Positions 6,706 through 22,502 of a DNA stretch of 61,786 nt are shown here, in pieces. A model generated the notes under the pieces. It was not told where the DNA came from and searched no databases. It saw only the letters and a program-made list of their open reading frames with translations. A program made the translations under genes and the position numbers. Positions within the stretch are counted from its first letter, which is position 1. Each line of letters begins with the position of its first letter. This DNA is from a virus. The stretch is taken from positions 1-61,786 of the IMG/VR virus record IMGVR_UViG_3300031673_000038. One strand, 5' to 3'.

Positions 6706-7581
6706 ATGGGTATAGTTATTGGAAGTGATATGTTTGATGAATTATTAAGATTAAAAACAAAGATGGATATTAGAATAATGTTAATGATTTTAAATTTTAA
6801 TATGTTAGATGAAGAAACGATAACATCTAATTTAAGAATAAGTGTTAAGACTTTACAAAAATCTTTAACTAGATTAATAGAAAGAGGTCTTGTTAAAAGA
6901 ATGAGACATAAGACAAATAATAGTGTTCGTTTAATTATAAGTAAAAGATATAATTCTATAGAACCATGTAATGAATGTAAATATTCTAGTGTAGATAAAG
7001 GAATATATTTATGTGGTCTAGAAAAGATAAAATGTTTGTATGATAAATATAGAATAGGACATGGAATTTGTAATTTAATGAAACAAGAATATGAAGAAAT
7101 TAATGCGTTAGAAAATTTGCGTGGTAATATAGGAAAAGGTGGACAAACAAAAGATGATATTAACGAATGGTCCTATAAAGATTTTGTATTATTCTACATG
7201 GAGCAGTTTAAAATTCATTTTCCAGATGCAATAGCACAAACAGAAATGTTATCGATCAGGTTAAATATGAAGAAGCTAATGAAGCTTATTAGAGAGAAGG
7301 TTCGTGAGAGTAAATGGCGTTATGTGGTTAAACATTATATTTCAAAAAGGATGAATGAATGTGTAGAATTAAAAACTTTAATTAATCCAAGCATGTTGTT
7401 GGAACCAGTTTCTATAAGGAAATTTTTAGATGGTAAGGGGTGTAAAATTGTGGATCTAAAATATTGTAAATTCAACAATATATTTTGTTCTTATATGAAG
7501 GATGAAAAATGTGAATTAGAAAAATCAAACATTAGTTGCGATAAAGAATTAGTAGAAAGAATGAAAGAGAGATACAATTGA
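6706..7581 (+). CDS. Winged-helix replication protein, possible helicase loader
   Basis: 291 residues. ATG 6706 is chosen because GGAGG lies 7 nt upstream; an upstream GTG (6646) lacks this. Residues about 20-65 form a helix-turn-helix or winged-helix segment with 'TITSNLRISVKTLQKSL' and 'LIERGLVKRM'. A Cys cluster follows ('CNECKYSS', later 'CGLEKIKC'), which could bind metal. The gene overlaps the DnaB-type helicase gene by four bases and heads the replication operon, so an initiator or helicase-loader role is likely by position. No ATPase motif is present, so it is not a DnaC-type AAA+ loader. Confidence 0.5.
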   Translation: MGIVIGSDMFDELLRLKTKMDIRIMLMILNFNMLDEETITSNLRISVKTLQKSLTRLIERGLVKRMRHKTNNSVRLIISKRYNSIEPCNECKYSSVDKGIYLCGLEKIKCLYDKYRIGHGICNLMKQEYEEINALENLRGNIGKGGQTKDDINEWSYKDFVLFYMEQFKIHFPDAIAQTEMLSIRLNMKKLMKLIREKVRESKWRYVVKHYISKRMNECVELKTLINPSMLLEPVSIRKFLDGKGCKIVDLKYCKFNNIFCSYMKDEKCELEKSNISCDKELVERMKERYN

Positions 7582-8978
7582 AAAAAGGTGAAGTTAAAGT
7601 TTCCGATTTTAGAGATATAGAATCGGAAAAAATTATAATTGCTGGATGTCTAAGAAATAGTGAAGTAATAGTTAAGTGTAAAGAAAATATAAGACCTGAT
7701 TTCTTTAGTAGCAGTAAATTAAAATGGATATATGAACAAATAATATCATTCTATGAAAGTCAAGATTTAGTTTTAAATACAGATGCATTCAAAATTCACT
7801 TAGAATCTAAACCATTAAAATTAAGAAAATCTTTTTTAAGATTATGGGAAAGCACATTGTTGTTAAAAAAGAAAGCAAATTTGACAACTTGTATGGCAGC
7901 GATTATGAAAATTGCTAAACTTGAAAAAGCAAGAACTATGGAGGCAACTATATCTAGAATACTTAATAATCTAACCAAAGCTCTAGAGGGTGGACAACAA
8001 TATATTGATTATGCAGTTAAAGATTATATGTCAATAACTGGCAATCTAGAAGAAAAACCAATGTTCATCACATTGTCTGATCCTATATCTAAATTCCAAG
8101 ATTTCAAAAAAGAACATATGAAAATACAATTAAATCCAAGAGAATACTTAGGTATTAAAACTGGAATAGAACAATTAGATAATGTTATGGGTGGTTTGCG
8201 TCCATCAGAATTTGGTTTAATTTCTGCACCTCCTGGTCGTGGTAAGTCTATAATGCTTTTAGATTTTTCTTACAATTGCTTTCTTTGTTTTGGAGACGCA
8301 TTGTATGTGACTATTGAAATGCCAGCCAGTCAGGTCATGATAAGATTGTATTGCAGATTATCTGGAATCAATTATAAATTCTTTAGAGACTACACATTAT
8401 CTACAGATCATTTTAATATTTTAGAAAGAAAAGTAAATAAGTTCATGACTGAACATCCATACAAATTTAACGTAATGGATATTCCTCAATCTTGTACAGT
8501 TACAATATTGAAGAATGAAATAGAATCATTTATTAAGAAAAATAAGCCGCCGAAATTAATAGTGATTGATTACATGAATATTTTAAAAGGTGGATATGAT
8601 TGGCAGAAACAATTAGAAATAGCTGTAGGTATCAAGCAAGAAATAGCGCGTTATTTCAAAATTCCAACATGGTCAGCTAATCAGATGGCAGTTGCAAAAG
8701 CTGAAAAAGAACATTTGAAAGCATCAGATTTGGCGTTTGCAAAGAATATTATTGACAATATTGACGTTGGTATAAGTATCGGATTGACAGATGAAAGTGA
8801 ACAAGATGAAATTTATAATATAGATTTTATCAAAACCAGAGACTTTGCAGCTAAAGGATTTGTTTTACAGGCAGATAAGTCAAAAATGACTTTTATTAGG
8901 ACAAGCAAAAACAGTGCTAGTAAGGACAAGGTTGAAGTAAAAATGAAAGAAGAAATAGGAGGAAACATAAAAACATGA
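7578..8978 (+). CDS. dnaB: DnaB-family replicative DNA helicase
   Basis: 466 residues, the usual size for the family. The N-terminal helical domain spans about 1-150. The RecA-like motor has Walker A 'SAPPGRGKS' (216-224), the 'EMPASQV' motif typical of DnaB, and Walker B 'LIVIDYMN' (Asp331). The hexamer would unwind DNA at the fork 5' to 3', powered by ATP. The start is TTG 7578, overlapping the previous stop as TTGA; no ATG gives a full N-terminus. It sits inside the replication operon. Confidence 0.93.
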   Translation: MKKGEVKVSDFRDIESEKIIIAGCLRNSEVIVKCKENIRPDFFSSSKLKWIYEQIISFYESQDLVLNTDAFKIHLESKPLKLRKSFLRLWESTLLLKKKANLTTCMAAIMKIAKLEKARTMEATISRILNNLTKALEGGQQYIDYAVKDYMSITGNLEEKPMFITLSDPISKFQDFKKEHMKIQLNPREYLGIKTGIEQLDNVMGGLRPSEFGLISAPPGRGKSIMLLDFSYNCFLCFGDALYVTIEMPASQVMIRLYCRLSGINYKFFRDYTLSTDHFNILERKVNKFMTEHPYKFNVMDIPQSCTVTILKNEIESFIKKNKPPKLIVIDYMNILKGGYDWQKQLEIAVGIKQEIARYFKIPTWSANQMAVAKAEKEHLKASDLAFAKNIIDNIDVGISIGLTDESEQDEIYNIDFIKTRDFAAKGFVLQADKSKMTFIRTSKNSASKDKVEVKMKEEIGGNIKT

Positions 8979-10045
8979 TAGTGGTTCCGATTGAAAACAT
9001 TAAAGAAATAATTTCTTATGAACAGCATAAGAAATTGGCAACAAAAAATTTAGATTATGTTTGTGGAGAACCTATAATCTTTAAGAAAAATGGTTCTTTA
9101 GGAATATATGATTGTTTTGTAAATTCAAAACATACAAATCTTGGATTTAGATTAGCTTATTTTCTTTGGAATTTGAAGGGTAGCAATATGTTGGCTCCAC
9201 TAAGCTATTATAGTAAACATGTCAACAATCTTACAGACGACAACATAACATTGCGTGGAGCATATGGGCCAAGGATGAGATTTTGGATTGGTGCAGATCA
9301 ATTGCAAGAAGCAATAAATACAAATTCTAGAATAGATGATCCTGAAGATTTTGTTAAACCTATGGGCGTAGATCAATTGCAGAAATGTTTTGAAGACTTA
9401 GAATCTGGTGGCATAGAAACAAGTAGTTGTATTATATTTGATCCATCATTAGATTTTGAAGATAGTAATAATATACCTGATTTGATTTCCATAACATTCA
9501 AACGTATTGGCGATAGATTAGATATGATAGCTAATTTTGGAACAGTGCAATTGGATGGAGAATTTGTAAACGATTATTTCTTCTTATCTTTGCTTCATGC
9601 TTGCATGTGTTCATTGATGAATAAGAAAGGGTTTATCTATTTCTGTATAGCTAATCCAAAATTCGGTGAAGAAAAAAATGAATTTTATGATTACAATTAT
9701 AAATGTAATGATTTAATGCCGCAAGATTTTTTGATAGATGCTTTCTGGGATAATATATTTAGATTATATGATTTTGAAAAACATCTTCGTTGTGCTGTTT
9801 TCAAAGAATCTGTACATTCAGAACAGATTGATTTGGAAAATCATTGTAGGATGTTAATGGATAAATTTATAGATCCAATTGAAGATGCATTCTGGCAAGA
9901 TTTTGGAAAGACAATTTTGATATGCAGTTTGTTAAAATATGGCGAAAGCAATTATCAAAATTACATAGAAGATGTTTTAGATTCCATGGAGAATGGAGGT
10001 TTTAAGAAAGAAATAATAGAAAAAATGGAAAGAGAAAAGAAGTGA
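8975..10045 (+). CDS. Thymidylate-synthase-fold protein lacking the catalytic cysteine
   Basis: 356 residues, ATG 8975 behind AGGAGG. It aligns along most of its length with the TS-family protein encoded at 37335: 'GAYGPRMRFW' matches 'AGYGPRLRNW', and 'VDQLQKCFEDL', 'IIFDP' and a 'RLDMIANFG' strand follow in the same order. At the place of the catalytic Cys this protein has Asp169 ('NIPDLIS'), and the RSND phosphate-binding motif is replaced by 'FGTVQLDGE'. It is therefore unlikely to methylate or hydroxymethylate a nucleotide by the known mechanism. Its place between helicase and HU-like genes suggests a recruited structural or nucleotide-sensing role; this is inference. Confidence 0.7.
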   Translation: MIVVPIENIKEIISYEQHKKLATKNLDYVCGEPIIFKKNGSLGIYDCFVNSKHTNLGFRLAYFLWNLKGSNMLAPLSYYSKHVNNLTDDNITLRGAYGPRMRFWIGADQLQEAINTNSRIDDPEDFVKPMGVDQLQKCFEDLESGGIETSSCIIFDPSLDFEDSNNIPDLISITFKRIGDRLDMIANFGTVQLDGEFVNDYFFLSLLHACMCSLMNKKGFIYFCIANPKFGEEKNEFYDYNYKCNDLMPQDFLIDAFWDNIFRLYDFEKHLRCAVFKESVHSEQIDLENHCRMLMDKFIDPIEDAFWQDFGKTILICSLLKYGESNYQNYIEDVLDSMENGGFKKEIIEKMEREKK

Positions 10046-10392
10046 AAAATTATAAGATAGAAAAAGGGTTAGGATCTAAGACTGATCCAGAATTGGTATC
10101 TGAATTATCTAGGATTATGAAATTACCAGTACAAGAAGTAAAGACAATCATAGATTATATAATGAATGGTATTAAAAAGAATCTAGAGACAAATGGGGTA
10201 GTAAATATAAGAAAGTTCGGCAGGTTTTATATATGTAAGAGGAAACGTGCTAAGTTTAAAAATTTCAAAGGAATAATGGTAGAAATACCAATTTCTTATT
10301 CTGTGAAATTTAAAGCATCTTCTTCTTTGAGGAGTTTGGTTAATAGATCTTTAGTTGTCAATAAAGGAAAGGCATTGCGTGAAAAATCTTGA
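10042..10392 (+). CDS. HU/IHF-family DNA-binding protein
   Basis: 116 residues with the HU fold: an N-terminal helical pair ('DPELVSELSRIM', 'EVKTIIDYIMNGI') followed by 'VVNIRKFGRFYICKRKRAKF', the conserved strand pair leading to the DNA-binding arms, and a C-terminal helix 'SSSLRSLVN'. Such proteins bend DNA and help build initiation or packaging complexes. GTG 10042 overlaps the preceding stop as GTGA. The protein is slightly longer than bacterial HU (about 90 residues) at both ends. Confidence 0.85.
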   Translation: MKNYKIEKGLGSKTDPELVSELSRIMKLPVQEVKTIIDYIMNGIKKNLETNGVVNIRKFGRFYICKRKRAKFKNFKGIMVEIPISYSVKFKASSSLRSLVNRSLVVNKGKALREKS

Positions 10393-15740: not shown

Positions 15741-17918
15741 GTGGGAATTTCGTTAGACGACTTAATTGCGAAGACTCGCGAAAAGTTCAGTGAGAATTCG
15801 ATAGTAATGAAATTGACAGAAAAGGCTATTAAGATAGTACCAGCTTGGAAAACAGGAATACCTCAACTTGATTTAGCTATAGGTGTAGGAGGTTTTCCTA
15901 AAGGACGTATCATAGAAATTTATGGACCTGAATCTTCAGGTAAGACAACTGCTGCTTTGACTACGATTGCACAAGCACAAAAACAGGGAGCTTGGGCATG
16001 GTATGGTGATATGGAACATTCTTTAGATCCAGCTTGGTGTAAACGATTAGGTGTGGATTTAGATAAGTTACTTTTAAGTCAACCATCTCATGCCGAAGAA
16101 TGTTTAACATTGACACAGCATTTTATTGAAAGTGGTGTAATTGATATAGTTGTGGTAGATTCAGTATCTTCATTAGTACCAAGGGCAGAATTAGAAGGTG
16201 AGTATGGCGAGTCACATATGGGGTTACAAGCAAGATTAATGTCACAGGCAATGCGAAAACTGACTTCAATAATTTCACGCACAGAATGTACCGCCATATT
16301 CATCAATCAAATACGTGAAAAGATTGGAGTTCGATGGGGATGTTTTGATTATGATTCGCGAATTTGTTTAGCAGATGGTACTACTGAAAAAATCGGTAAA
16401 ATAGTAAATCAGAAAAAAGACGTTAAGGTATTATCTTTAAATAAAGAATCAAATACTATAGAATCTAAAAACATAATTGGATGGTTTAATAATGGTGTAG
16501 AAGATAATTTTTTAGAATTCAAAACAACTGCTCCAAATAAATGTGGATATTCTAAATTTAGAGTAACATCTAATCATAAAATGATTTTATGTGACAATGG
16601 AAAATATATAGAAAAAAATGCTGGTGATTTTAGAGTTGGAGATTTTTTGTTAAGTTATGATTCACATAAAGATTGTAAATATTTTAAAGATTTACTTATA
16701 GGTTCTATGTTGGGAGACGGTTCTTTAAGAAAAATTAGTTATCATAAATCTGGATTTAGGTTGGGTCATTGTAAAGAACAAGAAGGATATATTAGATGGA
16801 AAGCAAATTTATTTAAACCAATTTTAGGTGGAGAAGTAAAGCAAGAAAACAATACAACAAATTTTAGATATGATACTAATGCAGATATCAGATTAGAAAA
16901 ATATAGAAAAGAAATTTGTAATGGGAATTATAAATTTAAAAACGATTGGTTTGGATTTAAAGAATGTGGTTTATTAGCTTTGACTATTTGGTATTTAGAC
17001 GATGGAACTTATGTACTAACTAAAGAATTGTGGGGTGCTGGTAGAACATCAATTTGTTCTAAATTGATGAATGAAGAACAATTAAATTGTGCAGCAAATT
17101 GGATAGAATCTTTAGGAATTAAAAAACCACAGGTAAAAATTGGAAAAGGATTGTATTTTAATGGTGGTGAACAAACATTTTCTTTTCATAAAGCAATATC
17201 CAAATATGTGCCTGAATGTATGCATTATAAATTACATTCAAAATTTTGCAATATTCCTAAATTAGAAAATAAGTGTGAAATAGACATTGTGAATGAAAAC
17301 ATTCCAGTAGAAATTCTTAAAAAAGAAATAAATTATAGACATACCAAAGGTAGAAAACGATATAAATATGATTTAGAAATTGAAGATAATCACAACTATA
17401 TTGTCGGTGGACCAAATGGTGTCATAGTTCACAATTCACCTGAAACAACTTCTGGTGGAAGAGCTTTGAAATTCTATGCATCGGTTCGTGTAGATGTACG
17501 TAGAACTGGTGAGATAGGAACTAAAGGTAAATCAATAGGATGTACAACTAAACTTACGATTAAGAAAAATAAAGTTGCTCCACCATTTAGAATTTGTGAA
17601 GCAGATTTAATTTTTAGTAAAGGATTCGATCTTGCAAGAAATTTATTAAGTACAGGATTGTTGATGGGAGTAATAGTTAAGGAAGGTAAGACATACTCAA
17701 TTACAGGTCTTAAGGAAGATAAAATGCAACTAGGAGTAGGAAAAAATTCTGCTATCAGTTTCATAGAAGAATTTGAAAAATCTTCAAAAGAAAATGGTGA
17801 AAAAAGTATATATGATTTCATAATAGATAAAATAAAAGAGGGTGGTGATTTACCAGCTTCTGAAGAAGACAGTGACGATACAACTGAAGCAAAAGAAATA
17901 GGTGATGATGTCGATTAG
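15741..17918 (+). CDS. recA: RecA recombinase precursor with intein
   Basis: 725 residues, GTG 15741 behind AAAAAGGAG. Extein 1 (1-200) has Walker A 'GPESSGKTT' (62-70), '[10 protein letters not shown]', Walker B '[12 protein letters not shown]' and '[10 protein letters not shown]'. Extein 2 (566-725) resumes at '[16 protein letters not shown]', matching RecA loop L2 onward, and ends in an acidic tail. The joined exteins are 360 residues, the normal RecA length. The intein interrupts loop L2, a conserved site that is cleaved only when foreign RecA DNA lacks the insert. Role: strand exchange and repair of replication forks. It is followed by a strong hairpin terminator. Confidence 0.95.
16341..17435 (+). 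other. Intein with LAGLIDADG homing endonuclease inside RecA
   Basis: 365 residues (201-565 of the precursor). It begins with Cys ('[13 protein letters not shown]'), has block B 'VTSNH', two LAGLIDADG-type motifs ('[12 protein letters not shown]' near 319 and '[11 protein letters not shown]' near 413), and ends 'GVIVHN' before Ser566. Cys1, the terminal His-Asn and the +1 Ser are what class 1 splicing needs, so it looks active. Both endonuclease motifs keep their acidic residues. Confidence 0.92.
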
Positions 17919-18532: not shown

Positions 18533-18879
18533 AGCGCGAATGGAAAAAGAAACTCAAATCTCTAGATAGAGAGAAAAAGAAACAGAAGAAATTGTCTAAA
18601 AAAAGAAATAGTAAAAATAAAAGATGGCCTGCTATTTTCTGCATTGAAGAAAAAAAGTTTATTGGAGTTTCTTATAATATGCTGACTTGTAAATTTGGAA
18701 TAATACAAAAACAAGTTATTAAAGATCATTGGTATCCAGAAGTTTGTAAATTTAGAAGTAAAGAATATGAAATTGATTTCAAGAAATTTAATAAAGGTGA
18801 TGAGGTCACTTGTCCTAAGTGTGGCGGGAAGGTTGATTTTAGGGTGTGGTTGTCTGCTACTACTCCAGAGTTTGTGTGA
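18529..18879 (+). CDS. Small basic zinc-ribbon protein
   Basis: 116 residues, overlapping dut by ATGA. Residues 1-32 are nearly all Lys and Arg ('KKKLKSLDREKKKQKKL'), suiting nucleic-acid binding. The C-terminal end carries 'CPKCGGKVDFRVW', half of a zinc ribbon; 'CKF' and an earlier Cys could provide the other ligands. Its role is unknown. It is translationally coupled with dut and the Rad50-like gene, which suggests a DNA-repair link. Confidence 0.55.
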   Translation: MKREWKKKLKSLDREKKKQKKLSKKRNSKNKRWPAIFCIEEKKFIGVSYNMLTCKFGIIQKQVIKDHWYPEVCKFRSKEYEIDFKKFNKGDEVTCPKCGGKVDFRVWLSATTPEFV

Positions 18880-19937
18880 TGATAAAGAAATTAAAATTAA
18901 TCAATTTTCAAATACACAAAAAGATTACAATAGAATTTGATGAAAAATTTAATGTCATTGTTGGACACAATAATGCTGGCAAGAGTTCTATCATTAGAGC
19001 TTTATATTGGGCATTTTATAATGAACCTGTTGGAGATTGGATGCGTAGAATAGAAGATGGAGAAATGCTTGAAACTTTAGTAAAGATAACATACTTCAAT
19101 GGAGACGTTGTTAAAAGAATAAAAGGTACAGGATTAAATAAATATGTGGTGAATGATGAAGAGTTTGAAAACTTTGGTTATGGTGTACCACAAAGAGTAA
19201 AAGAAATTCTAAACGTACACCAATTCAAAACTAATAAGTTTGAATTTCCACTTAATATATTCATGCAAGATGACCAACCATTTTTAATCCACGAAACTGG
19301 TCCAGTTAAAGCTAGTGTCATAGACGTGTTAACTGGAGTATCTTTATTACAGAAATCTATTACCGAATTTAATAAAGAACGATTAGAAAATTCAAAACTA
19401 AGCAAACAACTTTCTGATCAGATCGATGAAGACAAAAGTTTATTAGAATCTTTACCAGATTTGAAAAAAGCAAATGAATTAGTAAAACAAGCAGAAGTAA
19501 TACAAGAAAAATTAGATAAAGTAAAATCTGGAATCGATAGTTTAAGAACATTGAAAGATAAATATAAACTTGCAATTGAATTAATTAAAAAAATTGATGA
19601 TCAACACATAGATACAGATAAGTTAATAAAATTAAAAGAAAGATTAGAAGATTGTTCGGTTAATCTAAAAATTTGTAAAGACTTGAAATTTAAATACGAC
19701 AAATCAATAAAAGTTGCAGAAATACCAAATATTGATTTATCAAAAGCAGTAGACAATATGGAAAAGATTTCAGAGTTAAAAGATAAATGTGAAAATCTTA
19801 AAAGACAAAGAAGCAAATTGAATGATAGTGAAATAGAATTGGAAATAGTAAATACACATATGCCATTGGTTAAAAAAGAATTGAAAGATTTATGGAAAGA
19901 ATTAGGTGTTTGTCCTTTGTGTGGGGTAAAGCAATGA
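18879..19937 (+). CDS. Rad50/SbcC-like ATPase, N-terminal half ending at zinc hook
   Basis: 352 residues, starting at ATG 18879 (overlap TGATG). Walker A is 'GHNNAGKSS' (29-37), followed by the usual 'RALYWAFYNE', and a long coiled coil spans about 160-335. The protein stops just after 'CPLC' (Cys345, Cys348), the Rad50 zinc-hook motif that normally sits mid-protein. Signature and Walker B motifs are missing here but present in the gene at 21129. With the Mre11-type nuclease encoded next, it should form an end-processing complex. The stop is a clean TGA coupled to the next ATG, so truncation by sequencing error is unlikely. Confidence 0.85.
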   Translation: MIKKLKLINFQIHKKITIEFDEKFNVIVGHNNAGKSSIIRALYWAFYNEPVGDWMRRIEDGEMLETLVKITYFNGDVVKRIKGTGLNKYVVNDEEFENFGYGVPQRVKEILNVHQFKTNKFEFPLNIFMQDDQPFLIHETGPVKASVIDVLTGVSLLQKSITEFNKERLENSKLSKQLSDQIDEDKSLLESLPDLKKANELVKQAEVIQEKLDKVKSGIDSLRTLKDKYKLAIELIKKIDDQHIDTDKLIKLKERLEDCSVNLKICKDLKFKYDKSIKVAEIPNIDLSKAVDNMEKISELKDKCENLKRQRSKLNDSEIELEIVNTHMPLVKKELKDLWKELGVCPLCGVKQ

Positions 19938-20911
19938 CAAAATTATTGTTTTTTACTGATTGTCATTTTCGCCATAGGACACCTTTAAATAGAACAGATG
20001 ATATATTAGAAACTGCGTTAAGTAAGATGGAATTTATATTAAGGTTTGCTAAGTCTGAAGGATGTATACCGATTTGTGGTGGAGATTTTTGGCACACGCC
20101 TTCACAACCAGATTTCGTTGCAGTAAGGGTTGCAGAACTATTTGAAAAATATAATCTAACAACATACTTCTTAATAGGGAATCATGATTGTATAGGAGGT
20201 AATATTGAATCGTCTTACAAAGAAGGTAAATTGGGACTTTTCAAATATTATTCTTGGTTTAAATTCTTGGCCACTAATCCAATAGAAACAGACGATGTTA
20301 TAGTAGAAGGTTATGATTTTTCACGCGAATTAGAGTGTCCAGAACATATACCTTGTGAAGATATAAAATTAAAAAAGATTAGAATAGCAATAGTTCACAG
20401 TATGATAACAGATGACAATGCAGTAATTGTGAATGGAAAAAGTAAGACTGTTAATTGGTGTTCAATACAAACTGCTGTAGATATAGTAATGACAGGACAT
20501 TATCATCCAGGTTTTGATATAAAACAAAATTCATTAGGAACCTATTTTGTTAATCCAGGATCTATGGTAAGGTTGGAAGCATCAAAAATAGAAATGAATC
20601 GTGTTCCAAAATTTGCATTAATAAACATAGACTCTGGCAAGATAGACATTAGATATGTAGATTTACCATACAAAAAAGATGTGTTTAATATAGATTCAAA
20701 AAACAAAATTAATTCTTCAGAAGAAGAAAAACAAAAATTTATTGATGCATTAGATTCATTGAAAGACGATGAGATTATGGCAGGAAATATACTTTCTATT
20801 TTAGACAACTTTGATATAAACAAGCTTCCAACTGATTTAAAAAAAATAATAACAGAGAAAATCATTAAACGTTGTAAAGATAAGGTGGCAGCATTAGGCG
20901 AGGAGACATAA
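19934..20911 (+). CDS. sbcD: Mre11/SbcD-like nuclease
   Basis: 325 residues, ATG 19934 overlapping the Rad50 half by ATGA. It carries the metallophosphoesterase motifs in order: 'FFTDCHFRH' (D-x-H), 'GGDFWH', 'GNHD', 'IVHSMI' and 'GHYHPG'. These bind two metal ions for exonuclease and endonuclease action on DNA ends. It lies between the two parts of the split Rad50-like ATPase, its expected partner. The C-terminal region is charged and helical and may be the ATPase-binding segment. Confidence 0.92.
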   Translation: MTKLLFFTDCHFRHRTPLNRTDDILETALSKMEFILRFAKSEGCIPICGGDFWHTPSQPDFVAVRVAELFEKYNLTTYFLIGNHDCIGGNIESSYKEGKLGLFKYYSWFKFLATNPIETDDVIVEGYDFSRELECPEHIPCEDIKLKKIRIAIVHSMITDDNAVIVNGKSKTVNWCSIQTAVDIVMTGHYHPGFDIKQNSLGTYFVNPGSMVRLEASKIEMNRVPKFALINIDSGKIDIRYVDLPYKKDVFNIDSKNKINSSEEEKQKFIDALDSLKDDEIMAGNILSILDNFDINKLPTDLKKIITEKIIKRCKDKVAALGEET

Positions 20912-21154
20912 ATGGAAGATCCAGCGAAACGCATACGTAAGATTCAAGAAAAGATAAATAATTTGAAAGCACAGAAAATTTCTGCAGAGAAATCAAAAGA
21001 GGAAGTTATTGTAGAATTAAATGTTATGGGGGTTAAGATAGAAGATTTAGAAAAAACAATTAATGATAAACAGGAGCAAAAAGAAAAATTAGAAAAAGAA
21101 TTAGAAAAAGTATTAAAGGAGGCAGAAGATGTACTTGCAAGAAATCAAAACTAA
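20912..21154 (+). CDS. Small coiled-coil protein of the split Rad50 operon
   Basis: 80 residues behind AGGAGA. Almost the whole protein is a charged coiled coil ('IRKIQEKINNLKAQKI', 'EDLEKTINDKQEQKEKLEKE'). It overlaps the following gene by 26 nt in another frame. It lies between Mre11 and the C-terminal Rad50 half, which has only about 55 residues of coil. This protein may therefore supply part of the missing descending arm of the Rad50 coil; this is inference from position and composition. Confidence 0.65.
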   Translation: MEDPAKRIRKIQEKINNLKAQKISAEKSKEEVIVELNVMGVKIEDLEKTINDKQEQKEKLEKELEKVLKEAEDVLARNQN

Positions 21155-21728
21155 AGTAGCAGAATTGCGTGGTAGAAAGAATGAAATTAAAGGTAGGATA
21201 AAAGAAAATGAAGTAGAATATAGGTTGCACGAAAAAGATAAAGAAGAGTTGGAAAGATGTATACAGTTATTAACATTCATAAGCAACCTTAATCAAGATA
21301 AAATAATAGAATTATTTCAACACACTATAGCAGCAGGACTTAAAGATCTTTTTAGCGATGATTATGATTTTAAATTCGATATGAAGACTAGAGGAAATTC
21401 TTCTTCATGTGATTTTTTAATTAAGACCGATGCATGTGATATGTGGACAGATATAAAGATGTGTCAAGGAAGATCAGTGCAAGAAATTATAGGTACAATA
21501 TTTAGGATTGTATTAGTTAAACTAGACAAGAATAGTAGAAAAATAGTTATCCTCGATGAACCTACTGGTGGCATTGAAGGAGAGCGTCAAGAATTGATGA
21601 GTAGGTTTTTAAGCGAAATATGTTTAAAGTTTGGAATTCAATTGATAATTGTTACACATAGTGAAGAATTAACTGAATATGCTTCTAAAAGGATTGATTT
21701 AGAAAGCATTAATAATGGCAAAGACTGA
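21129..21728 (+). CDS. Rad50/SbcC-like ATPase, C-terminal half
   Basis: 199 residues, ATG 21129 with AAGGAGG 7 nt upstream. A short coiled coil (1-55) is followed by 'CQGRSVQEIIGTIFRI' (112-127) at the place of the ABC signature, Walker B plus D-loop 'IVILDEPTGG' (139-148), and the H-loop 'VTHSEE' (His177). It has no Walker A and no Cys-x-x-Cys hook. It must pair with the N-terminal half at 18879 to make a complete ATPase site. Its own strong ribosome binding site argues for separate translation and not frameshifting. Confidence 0.85.
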   Translation: MYLQEIKTKVAELRGRKNEIKGRIKENEVEYRLHEKDKEELERCIQLLTFISNLNQDKIIELFQHTIAAGLKDLFSDDYDFKFDMKTRGNSSSCDFLIKTDACDMWTDIKMCQGRSVQEIIGTIFRIVLVKLDKNSRKIVILDEPTGGIEGERQELMSRFLSEICLKFGIQLIIVTHSEELTEYASKRIDLESINNGKD

Positions 21729-22173
21729 ATCAATATTTTCTGCACAAGTAAGAAAAGAATTAAAATTAGTTTATGGTGATGAGTGTTTCGTTCAGTTACT
21801 TCCAGATATGCGTAGAACAGGTAAAAAACCATTTGATTTCTTTTTTGTTTACAATTCTATTTTTATAGCTATAGAATGTAAATTGTCAGATGGAAATTCA
21901 TTTAACATTGTTAATGATGTTAGACCTCATCAAATTCCATGCCTATTCGGTGTAGAAAAGGCTGGAGGTAAAGCATTCTTTCTTATTTGTTTTAGAAAAC
22001 ATGAAACATCTTTCATTTGTACTCCAAGTAAGATTGGGTATATGGAAGAGAAAAAGATGTCAGATAGACTAACAATAGAAGATTTTAGAAATCACACAAC
22101 AGAAATGGGTAGATTTAAGATAGGAGGAAAAACAAGATGGGCAGTAGAAAAGTTAGTAGAAGAATGTCAATGA
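21715..22173 (+). CDS. RecU-like PD-(D/E)XK Holliday junction nuclease
   Basis: 152 residues, overlapping the Rad50 C-half. The nuclease core reads 'PFDFFFVYNSIFIAIECKLS', i.e. D-x(n)-E-x-K, followed by 'NDVRPHQIPCL', the Arg/His-Gln segment seen in RecU and related resolvases. An upstream basic 'RRTGKKP' fits the DNA-binding face. Likely role: resolving recombination junctions before packaging. The family is fairly clear; junction specificity is inferred from the recombination-gene context. Confidence 0.75.
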   Translation: MAKTESIFSAQVRKELKLVYGDECFVQLLPDMRRTGKKPFDFFFVYNSIFIAIECKLSDGNSFNIVNDVRPHQIPCLFGVEKAGGKAFFLICFRKHETSFICTPSKIGYMEEKKMSDRLTIEDFRNHTTEMGRFKIGGKTRWAVEKLVEECQ

Positions 22174-22502
22174 GTGTTACTAGTCTTTCAACTTTAAACC
22201 CGAACAAAGAATATCTTGAAATAACGAAAGAACTAAGAAATTATGTCTTGACTAGAGATAATGATTTGTGTCAAATGTGTGGTATGCAAGGTGACCACAC
22301 ACATCATGTCATATATAAAAGTTTAGGTGGAAAGAATTCTGCAAATAATTTAATCACTTTATGTGAAACACACCATACTGGAAACGAAGGTGTACACGGG
22401 AAATTAGGAAACATGAAAGCATTACTGCAAGACAAAATTGAAAAGAACGAACAAAGATTAAGAAAAAAGTTAAACAATTCGTACACCAAAAGAATTTTAT
22501 AA
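22137..22502 (+). CDS. HNH endonuclease
   Basis: 121 residues, ATG 22137 behind AGGAGG. The core is 'CQMCGMQGDHTHHVIYKSLG' with 'NNLITLCETHHTGNEGVHG': two Cys pairs or triads for structural zinc and the His-Asn-His set for metal-dependent DNA nicking. It overlaps the RecU-like gene by 37 nt. It may be a free-standing homing endonuclease or a phage processing nuclease; nothing nearby is interrupted. Confidence 0.8.
   Translation: MGSRKVSRRMSMSVTSLSTLNPNKEYLEITKELRNYVLTRDNDLCQMCGMQGDHTHHVIYKSLGGKNSANNLITLCETHHTGNEGVHGKLGNMKALLQDKIEKNEQRLRKKLNNSYTKRIL

Follow-up and report, generated by a model that had tools for sequence, protein, structure and literature searches.

The closest described relatives of the system reported here are the Rad50/SbcC ATPases and their Mre11/SbcD nuclease partners, of which gp46/gp47 of phage T4 is an example. 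Rad50, an ATPase of DNA-break repair, is thought to require a long intramolecular coiled coil, which joins its zinc hook to its head. We analysed a viral DNA of 61,786 nucleotides (IMG/VR record IMGVR_UViG_3300031673_000038, positions 1-61,786, hereafter the window) in which a Rad50-like ATPase is encoded by two genes cut at the zinc hook, with the genes of an Mre11-like nuclease and of a small helical protein, here called K, lying between them. As in Rad50/SbcC, N- and C-lobes of the ATP-binding cassette (ABC) type are recognized by profile and by fold, a CxxC zinc-hook motif is located at the tip of the ascending arm, an Mre11 gene is present as partner and the neighbourhood is one of recombination. 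Unlike Rad50/SbcC, the system consists of two polypeptides with the break just past the hook, it includes an additional conserved protein (K), its descending arm is cut to ~52-65 residues in most cases, and RGGGV or CQGRSV stands in place of the LSGGE signature. Because of the two genes, and of a descending part of ~52 residues against an arm of ~190 residues, we class it as a split Rad50-like variant and not as a regular member. The lobes, the hook and the partner suggest a Rad50-like working, yet neither the canonical signature nor a single full-arm chain is present.

Other split phage enzymes are known to reassemble, namely NrdA in phage Aeh1 and gp43A/B in phage 25; each is an isolated instance that was attributed to, or linked with, the insertion of a homing endonuclease (PMC2988022). 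A related single-chain protein is the mini-Rad50 of Paenibacillus phage phiERICV (508 aa, encoded beside the recombination protein Bet), which has a related N-lobe and a CxxC (CRVC) in mid-chain. It differs by its one chain and its degenerate C-lobe, and the relation is weak (E-value 1e-24 with an iterated N-half profile). In the part of a jumbo-phage survey considered here (PMC7824862), SbcC and SbcD are recorded as practically universal, with no mention of a split. No description of a split phage Rad50/SbcC was found in the openly accessible literature searched, and its presence in many unrelated phages appears to be undescribed. In the PHROG database the window proteins match three families catalogued as unrelated, without mention of one split Rad50: 16465 ("exonuclease") for the N-half (E 7e-43), 15167 ("ATPase") for the C-half (E 4.5e-15) and 7303 (unknown function) for K (E 0.003).

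The two Rad50 halves and their genes

Five closely packed genes of the + strand form the locus:

18879-19937, + strand: Rad50 N-half, 352 aa, with ABC N-lobe, helical arm and C-terminal zinc-hook motif; ATG at 18879, TGA at 19935-19937
19934-20911, + strand: Mre11/SbcD-like nuclease, 325 aa; ATG at 19934, TAA at 20909-20911
20912-21154, + strand: K, helical protein, 80 aa; ATG at 20912
21129-21728, + strand: Rad50 C-half, 199 aa, a coil followed by an ABC C-lobe; ATG at 21129, stop at 21726-21728
21715-22173, + strand: RecU-type resolvase

The original prediction, made from the window sequence alone, had given the same coordinates for a 352-residue first part carrying Walker A and ending after CPLC, with the Mre11 gene and an 80-residue gene between the halves, and was correct on these points. 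It had also noted that the starts overlap or are coupled to ribosome-binding sites, which is borne out at each junction. The N-half start overlaps the stop of the preceding upstream gene (TGATG), the Mre11 start overlaps the N-half stop (ATGA), the K start abuts the Mre11 stop (TAAATG), and the C-half start lies inside K with AGGAGG just before it. The coupled starts across the four-gene set are genuine. No argument was found in favour of a single gene broken by a sequencing or assembly error, and we give this explanation practically no credit: a whole Mre11 gene and K intervene between the halves, and the identical split in independently sequenced isolates and many contigs, recurring in ~40 phage sequence clusters, refutes it, as had been anticipated.

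The N-half carries the following motifs:

18963-18986, + strand: Walker A motif GHNNAGKS, read from the sequence; G29, G34 and K35 invariant among 33 N-halves
19266-19268, + strand: glutamine of the putative Q-loop (residue 130), assigned by position; invariant in an alignment of 22 N-halves and nearly so in one of 33
19911-19922, + strand: CPLC zinc-hook motif, 4 residues ahead of the stop; C345 and C348 kept in 90% or more of 33 N-halves

The window N-half matches Pfam AAA_23 (E 2.8e-17) and the NCBIfam Rad50 model (E 5e-15), and the profile of its family matches Rad50 N-lobes in the PDB (5f3w, E 5e-14). An AlphaFold2 model (predicted local distance difference test, pLDDT, 78.6; predicted template modelling score, pTM, 0.42) was matched at Z 10-13 by the N-lobes of RecF, SMC and Rad50 alike, so that the fold alone is not specific to Rad50. 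The CxxC feature of the Rad50 zinc hook is present at the N-half end, which reads CPLCGVKQ in the window (final residues KELGVCPLCGVKQ); zinc binding itself is predicted from this sequence. When the final 79 residues of 20 N-halves were made into a profile and searched against the PDB, the top two matches were crystals of the Rad50 zinc hook (1l8d, E 2.7e-6; 6zff, E 3.7e-6). In these alignments the CPxCG residues are superposed and the match stops at the apex, which places the break at the hook tip. It is the tail, not the fold alone, that singles out the N-half as Rad50.

Ahead of this tail the arm of the window N-half spans ~190 residues, modelled by AlphaFold2 as three helices (154-191, 195-277, 288-342) separated by breaks. 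In Bacillus-type phages the arm has a repeat unit of 47 residues (z 4-7 for self-similarity at lag 47, in 8 of 10 sequences), and arm lengths fall 46-47 residues apart (301-303 versus 348-349); no such repeat was detectable in the window arm. Tandem copies are visible in L016, L046, L038, L044 and others, where arm lengths vary from phage to phage by roughly one repeat. In three phage contigs that are related (L076, 4945-7233; L079 and L088, 4834-7182) the N-half is interrupted by an intein within Walker A (GK|S). A reading of these N-halves, 762-782 aa long, as recombinase fusions was rejected on account of the inteins.

The second half supplies the complementary motifs:

21132-21287, + strand: helix forming the N-terminal coil of the C-half (residues 2-53; DSSP assignment on the AlphaFold2 model)
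21462-21479, + strand: degenerate signature position CQGRSV, placed by alignment of C-halves and by alignment to Rad50
21540-21560, + strand: Walker B motif KIVILDE; D143 and E144 invariant in 26 C-halves
21657-21659, + strand: H-loop histidine, residue 177 (IIVTHS); invariant in 26 C-halves

Rad50 C-lobes rank first when the C-half family profile is searched against the PDB (3qkr_B, E 9.4e-15), and the AlphaFold2 model of the window C-half (pLDDT 85.8) finds its best match in Rad50 1f2u_B (Z 14.5, root mean square deviation 2.5 over 136 residues). Walker B and the H-loop are intact in the window. The canonical signature motif is absent: CQGRSV in the window and RGGGV in most relatives take the place of the LSGGE of Rad50. 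The arginine that follows (R126) is invariant and aligns with the Arg of FRLA in the signature helix of Rad50. Hence, of the 199-residue second part proposed at first, Walker B and the H-loop stand, while the signature it was credited with is degenerate. The claim that this part has almost no coil was an understatement, since the descending arm is modelled as a single helix of 52 residues. The C-half open reading frames (ORFs) of L037 (7076-7990) and L038 (5299-6186) carry ~85-95 extra N-terminal residues with a repeated PISP(I/L)LARQVPSSYKGTV-type segment, which may reflect an over-long start or an added domain.

Distribution and conservation of the split

Hidden Markov models of the four parts were built and iterated. 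Scanning IMG/VR with the C-half profile yielded 41 loci; another came from a genome assembly of Sutcliffiella horikoshii. The N-half profile added 31 loci. Since many loci are near-identical, counts are given per cluster where possible; the contigs are often fragments. When viral contigs were queried with the N-half or the C-half of the window alone, no matches were obtained, and profiles built from other phages were needed.

The N-halves form 40 clusters at 70% identity and 32 at 50%. In 72 of 75 N-halves, many of them near-identical, the CxxC lies 4-19 residues from the C-terminus; of the other three, two are Magritte-like proteins that lack CxxC and one has CPIT. Together with the tail-profile match, this upholds the proposal of a cut exactly at the zinc hook. 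None of the ORFs examined in the survey matched both the N and the C models. All four components are present in 33 of the 41 tabulated genomes. Gene order varies: 11 clusters have N-K-C-Mre11, 13 have N-K-Mre11 with the C-half elsewhere, 6 have N-Mre11-K-C, and the rest are incomplete. The four-gene order of the window was sought in other phages and found exactly, with overlapping genes, in Microcystis phage Mvi-JY20.

Bacillus phage vB_BboS-125 (L001, NC_048735.1) has an N-half of 471 aa ending in CPLCEQTHKGGGC, a K of 78 aa, a C-half of 211 aa and an unannotated Mre11. The latter, a complete Mre11-type gene missing from the RefSeq annotation, lies at 9247-10227 between gp36 and gp37. In the same genome an AP2-domain gene (7407-7979) stands between the N-half and K, and a homing-type insertion of this kind might have to do with how the split arose. 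Both halves also occur in the 485-kb uncultured phage LR745208, in Tunturiibacter phage Tunturi_5 and in Microbacterium phage Magritte, at distant places of the genome in the last two. Like NrdA of Aeh1 and gp43A/B of phage 25, the ATPase would be a phage enzyme encoded in cooperating pieces; unlike them, it is no isolated case, for its split is old and occurs in highly divergent phages.

In several genomes the halves are tens of kb apart and still co-occur. Among nine whole-searched records that had a C-half with no N-half nearby, six contain an N-half elsewhere; conversely, a C-half was found elsewhere in 11 of 18 records detected through their N-half, including 8 of the 9 above 130 kb, and the misses are mostly short contigs. 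Such retention of unlinked halves is expected of a machine assembled in trans. Distance matrices of N, K, C and Mre11 correlate with one another (r 0.90-0.97), which is weak support as the values are dominated by clade structure.

These data bear on two other explanations. The halves might not form one ATPase at all, the N-half being a zinc-linked DNA tether and the C-half a separate regulator, as the degenerate signature and the unlinking of the C-half from the N-half in many jumbo-type phages could suggest. We regard this as highly improbable: Walker A and the Q-loop on one side, Walker B and the H-loop on the other, are kept in complementary halves family-wide, an ABC ATP site is impossible from either lobe alone, and the genes of both halves are co-inherited. 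It is even harder to believe that the halves are rejoined into a normal Rad50 by protein trans-splicing, frameshifting or joining at the RNA level. Inteins do occur in the RecA of the window and in Walker A of the three N-halves mentioned above, but with just 4-19 residues beyond the CxxC there is no room for a split intein; moreover other genes intervene or the halves lie tens of kb apart, and in the window both halves have a start and a ribosome-binding site of their own.

Mre11 and the small protein K

The Mre11 of the window matches Pfam Metallophos (E 2.7e-7) and its family profile matches Mre11 structures (E 1e-9). The calcineurin-like phosphoesterase motifs of Mre11/SbcD (D-H, D, NH, H, H-H) are all present, with D9, H11, D51, N83, H84, H155, H189 and H191 as metal ligands, nearly all of them invariant in 14 relatives.

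A profile built from K genes recovers the K of the window at E 1e-12. Searching the PDB with K gave no relative and only a coiled-coil background (best E 0.005, to a synthetic helix). By local search K was detected in 36 of the 41 tabulated genomes (one more match, on the minus strand, was discounted), and whole-record searches added K in several genomes where the local search had missed it. It directly follows the N-half, by overlap or within a few bases, in jumbo-type phages (e.g. L087, L083, L077) and directly precedes the C-half in others. A K match with an in-frame TAG inside, possibly a recoded stop, was found at G017:C1:27736-28005. A 358-aa ORF of L050 was considered as a K-C fusion and rejected as an over-long ORF in GC-rich DNA.

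The original prediction saw in K a coiled-coil protein which may replace the missing arm. Its helical nature holds, but the sequence suggests two helices around a conserved turn (G40, with P/E nearby), it contains no CxxC, and K looks like a hookless helical hairpin rather than one long strand. As a return arm, K would run antiparallel to the N-half arm and bridge the hook to the C-half coil, giving a three-piece Rad50 coiled coil. Several features are compatible with this: K is helical and a constant companion of the set, its gene neighbouring either the N-half or the C-half depending on the phage, and in the window an arm of ~192 residues is not absurdly mismatched with the 80 residues of K plus a C-half coil of 53. 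However, across the family the arm varies from ~150 to 349 residues while K stays at ~75-100 aa and the C-half coil at ~52-65 in most members; in Bacillus-type phages K has 77 residues and the coil 61 in both arm classes. The correlation between arm and K lengths is negative (rho -0.42, phylogeny uncorrected), and the central turn is more hairpin-like than expected of a single long strand. As the lengths of K and of the C-half coil ignore that of the arm, a return arm matched 1:1, residue for residue, is disfavoured, and arm replacement by K is unlikely, even though several K copies per arm could rescue the idea. Of the three-piece ATPase first proposed, a multi-piece complex survives as the natural reading of the conserved split and of the constant presence of Mre11 and K; the replacement of the arm by K is not supported in the form proposed.

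A proposed model for assembly in trans

We consider it likely that the two halves come together in trans on Mre11 to form a Rad50-like ATPase whose zinc hook is C-terminal, K being a conserved accessory subunit. The N-half would give the ABC N-lobe (Walker A, Q-loop) and the entire ascending arm, with the CxxC at its free C-terminus, and the C-half would give a short descending-arm stub and the C-lobe with Walker B and H-loop. The lobes would join in trans through their beta-core as one ABC head, the C-half coil (residues 2-53) pairing with the first helix of the N-half arm (154-191), and Mre11 would dock at the coil base, helping to hold the head. Zinc would bridge two N-half tails through the C-terminal CxxC. 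K would most likely bind the stretch of the N-half arm that lacks a descending strand, acting as an accessory clamp or linker and not as a full replacement arm. ATP would unite two heads, and this would license Mre11 for the cutting or resection of DNA ends in phage recombination. Trans assembly is physically possible, because crystals of Rad50 heads contain the N and C parts as separate chains (in 1f2t and 1f2u, chains A and B have distinct sequences), and feasible, because split phage NrdA and DNA polymerase work (PMC2988022).

Several observations weigh against this proposal. The pTM of the N-half model is 0.42, so that the model does not fix the path of the arm. Two nearly invariant glycines of the family signature are R and S in the window, the D-loop is likewise non-canonical, and because the canonical signature motif is absent the ATPase activity of the window copy is uncertain. 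The hook is not always kept, as seen in the Magritte-like N-halves without terminal CxxC. A few sizeable records gave one half only (G004, 151 kb; G016, 223 kb). Finally, the role given to K is drawn solely from co-inheritance and adjacency.

We put forward more tentatively, as a possibility below even odds, that these phages hold a widespread Mre11-Rad50 lineage without covalent link between the lobes or full descending strand. Its arm would be a solenoid or zigzag of ~47-residue repeats ending in a free C-terminal hook, and it would be coupled to the head by K, a small hairpin protein dedicated to this task. Hook-to-head signalling would in that case rely on non-covalent contacts or be unneeded.

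The conserved split suggests that a machine of the Rad50 type can do without a single uninterrupted chain. Being natural, old and common, a form that is cut at the hook and has little returning strand would offer a ready test of the roles of hook, arm and covalent linkage, and its small pieces should allow assembly, ATPase, zinc bridging and nuclease activity to be separated by mutants. It would also bring together in one machine three PHROG families, of which one is entirely uncharacterised, and account for the many phages that seem to carry merely partial SbcC genes.

A role in recombination or DNA-end processing is suggested by the neighbouring genes and by the known role of Mre11-Rad50. 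RecA and dUTPase genes lie just upstream of the N-half, and the RecU-type gene closes the locus. The RecA gene of the window (15741-17918) contains an intein with a splicing domain (residues 208-565) and a LAGLIDADG endonuclease. On the other side, an HNH endonuclease gene (22137-22502) overlaps the end of the RecU-type gene.

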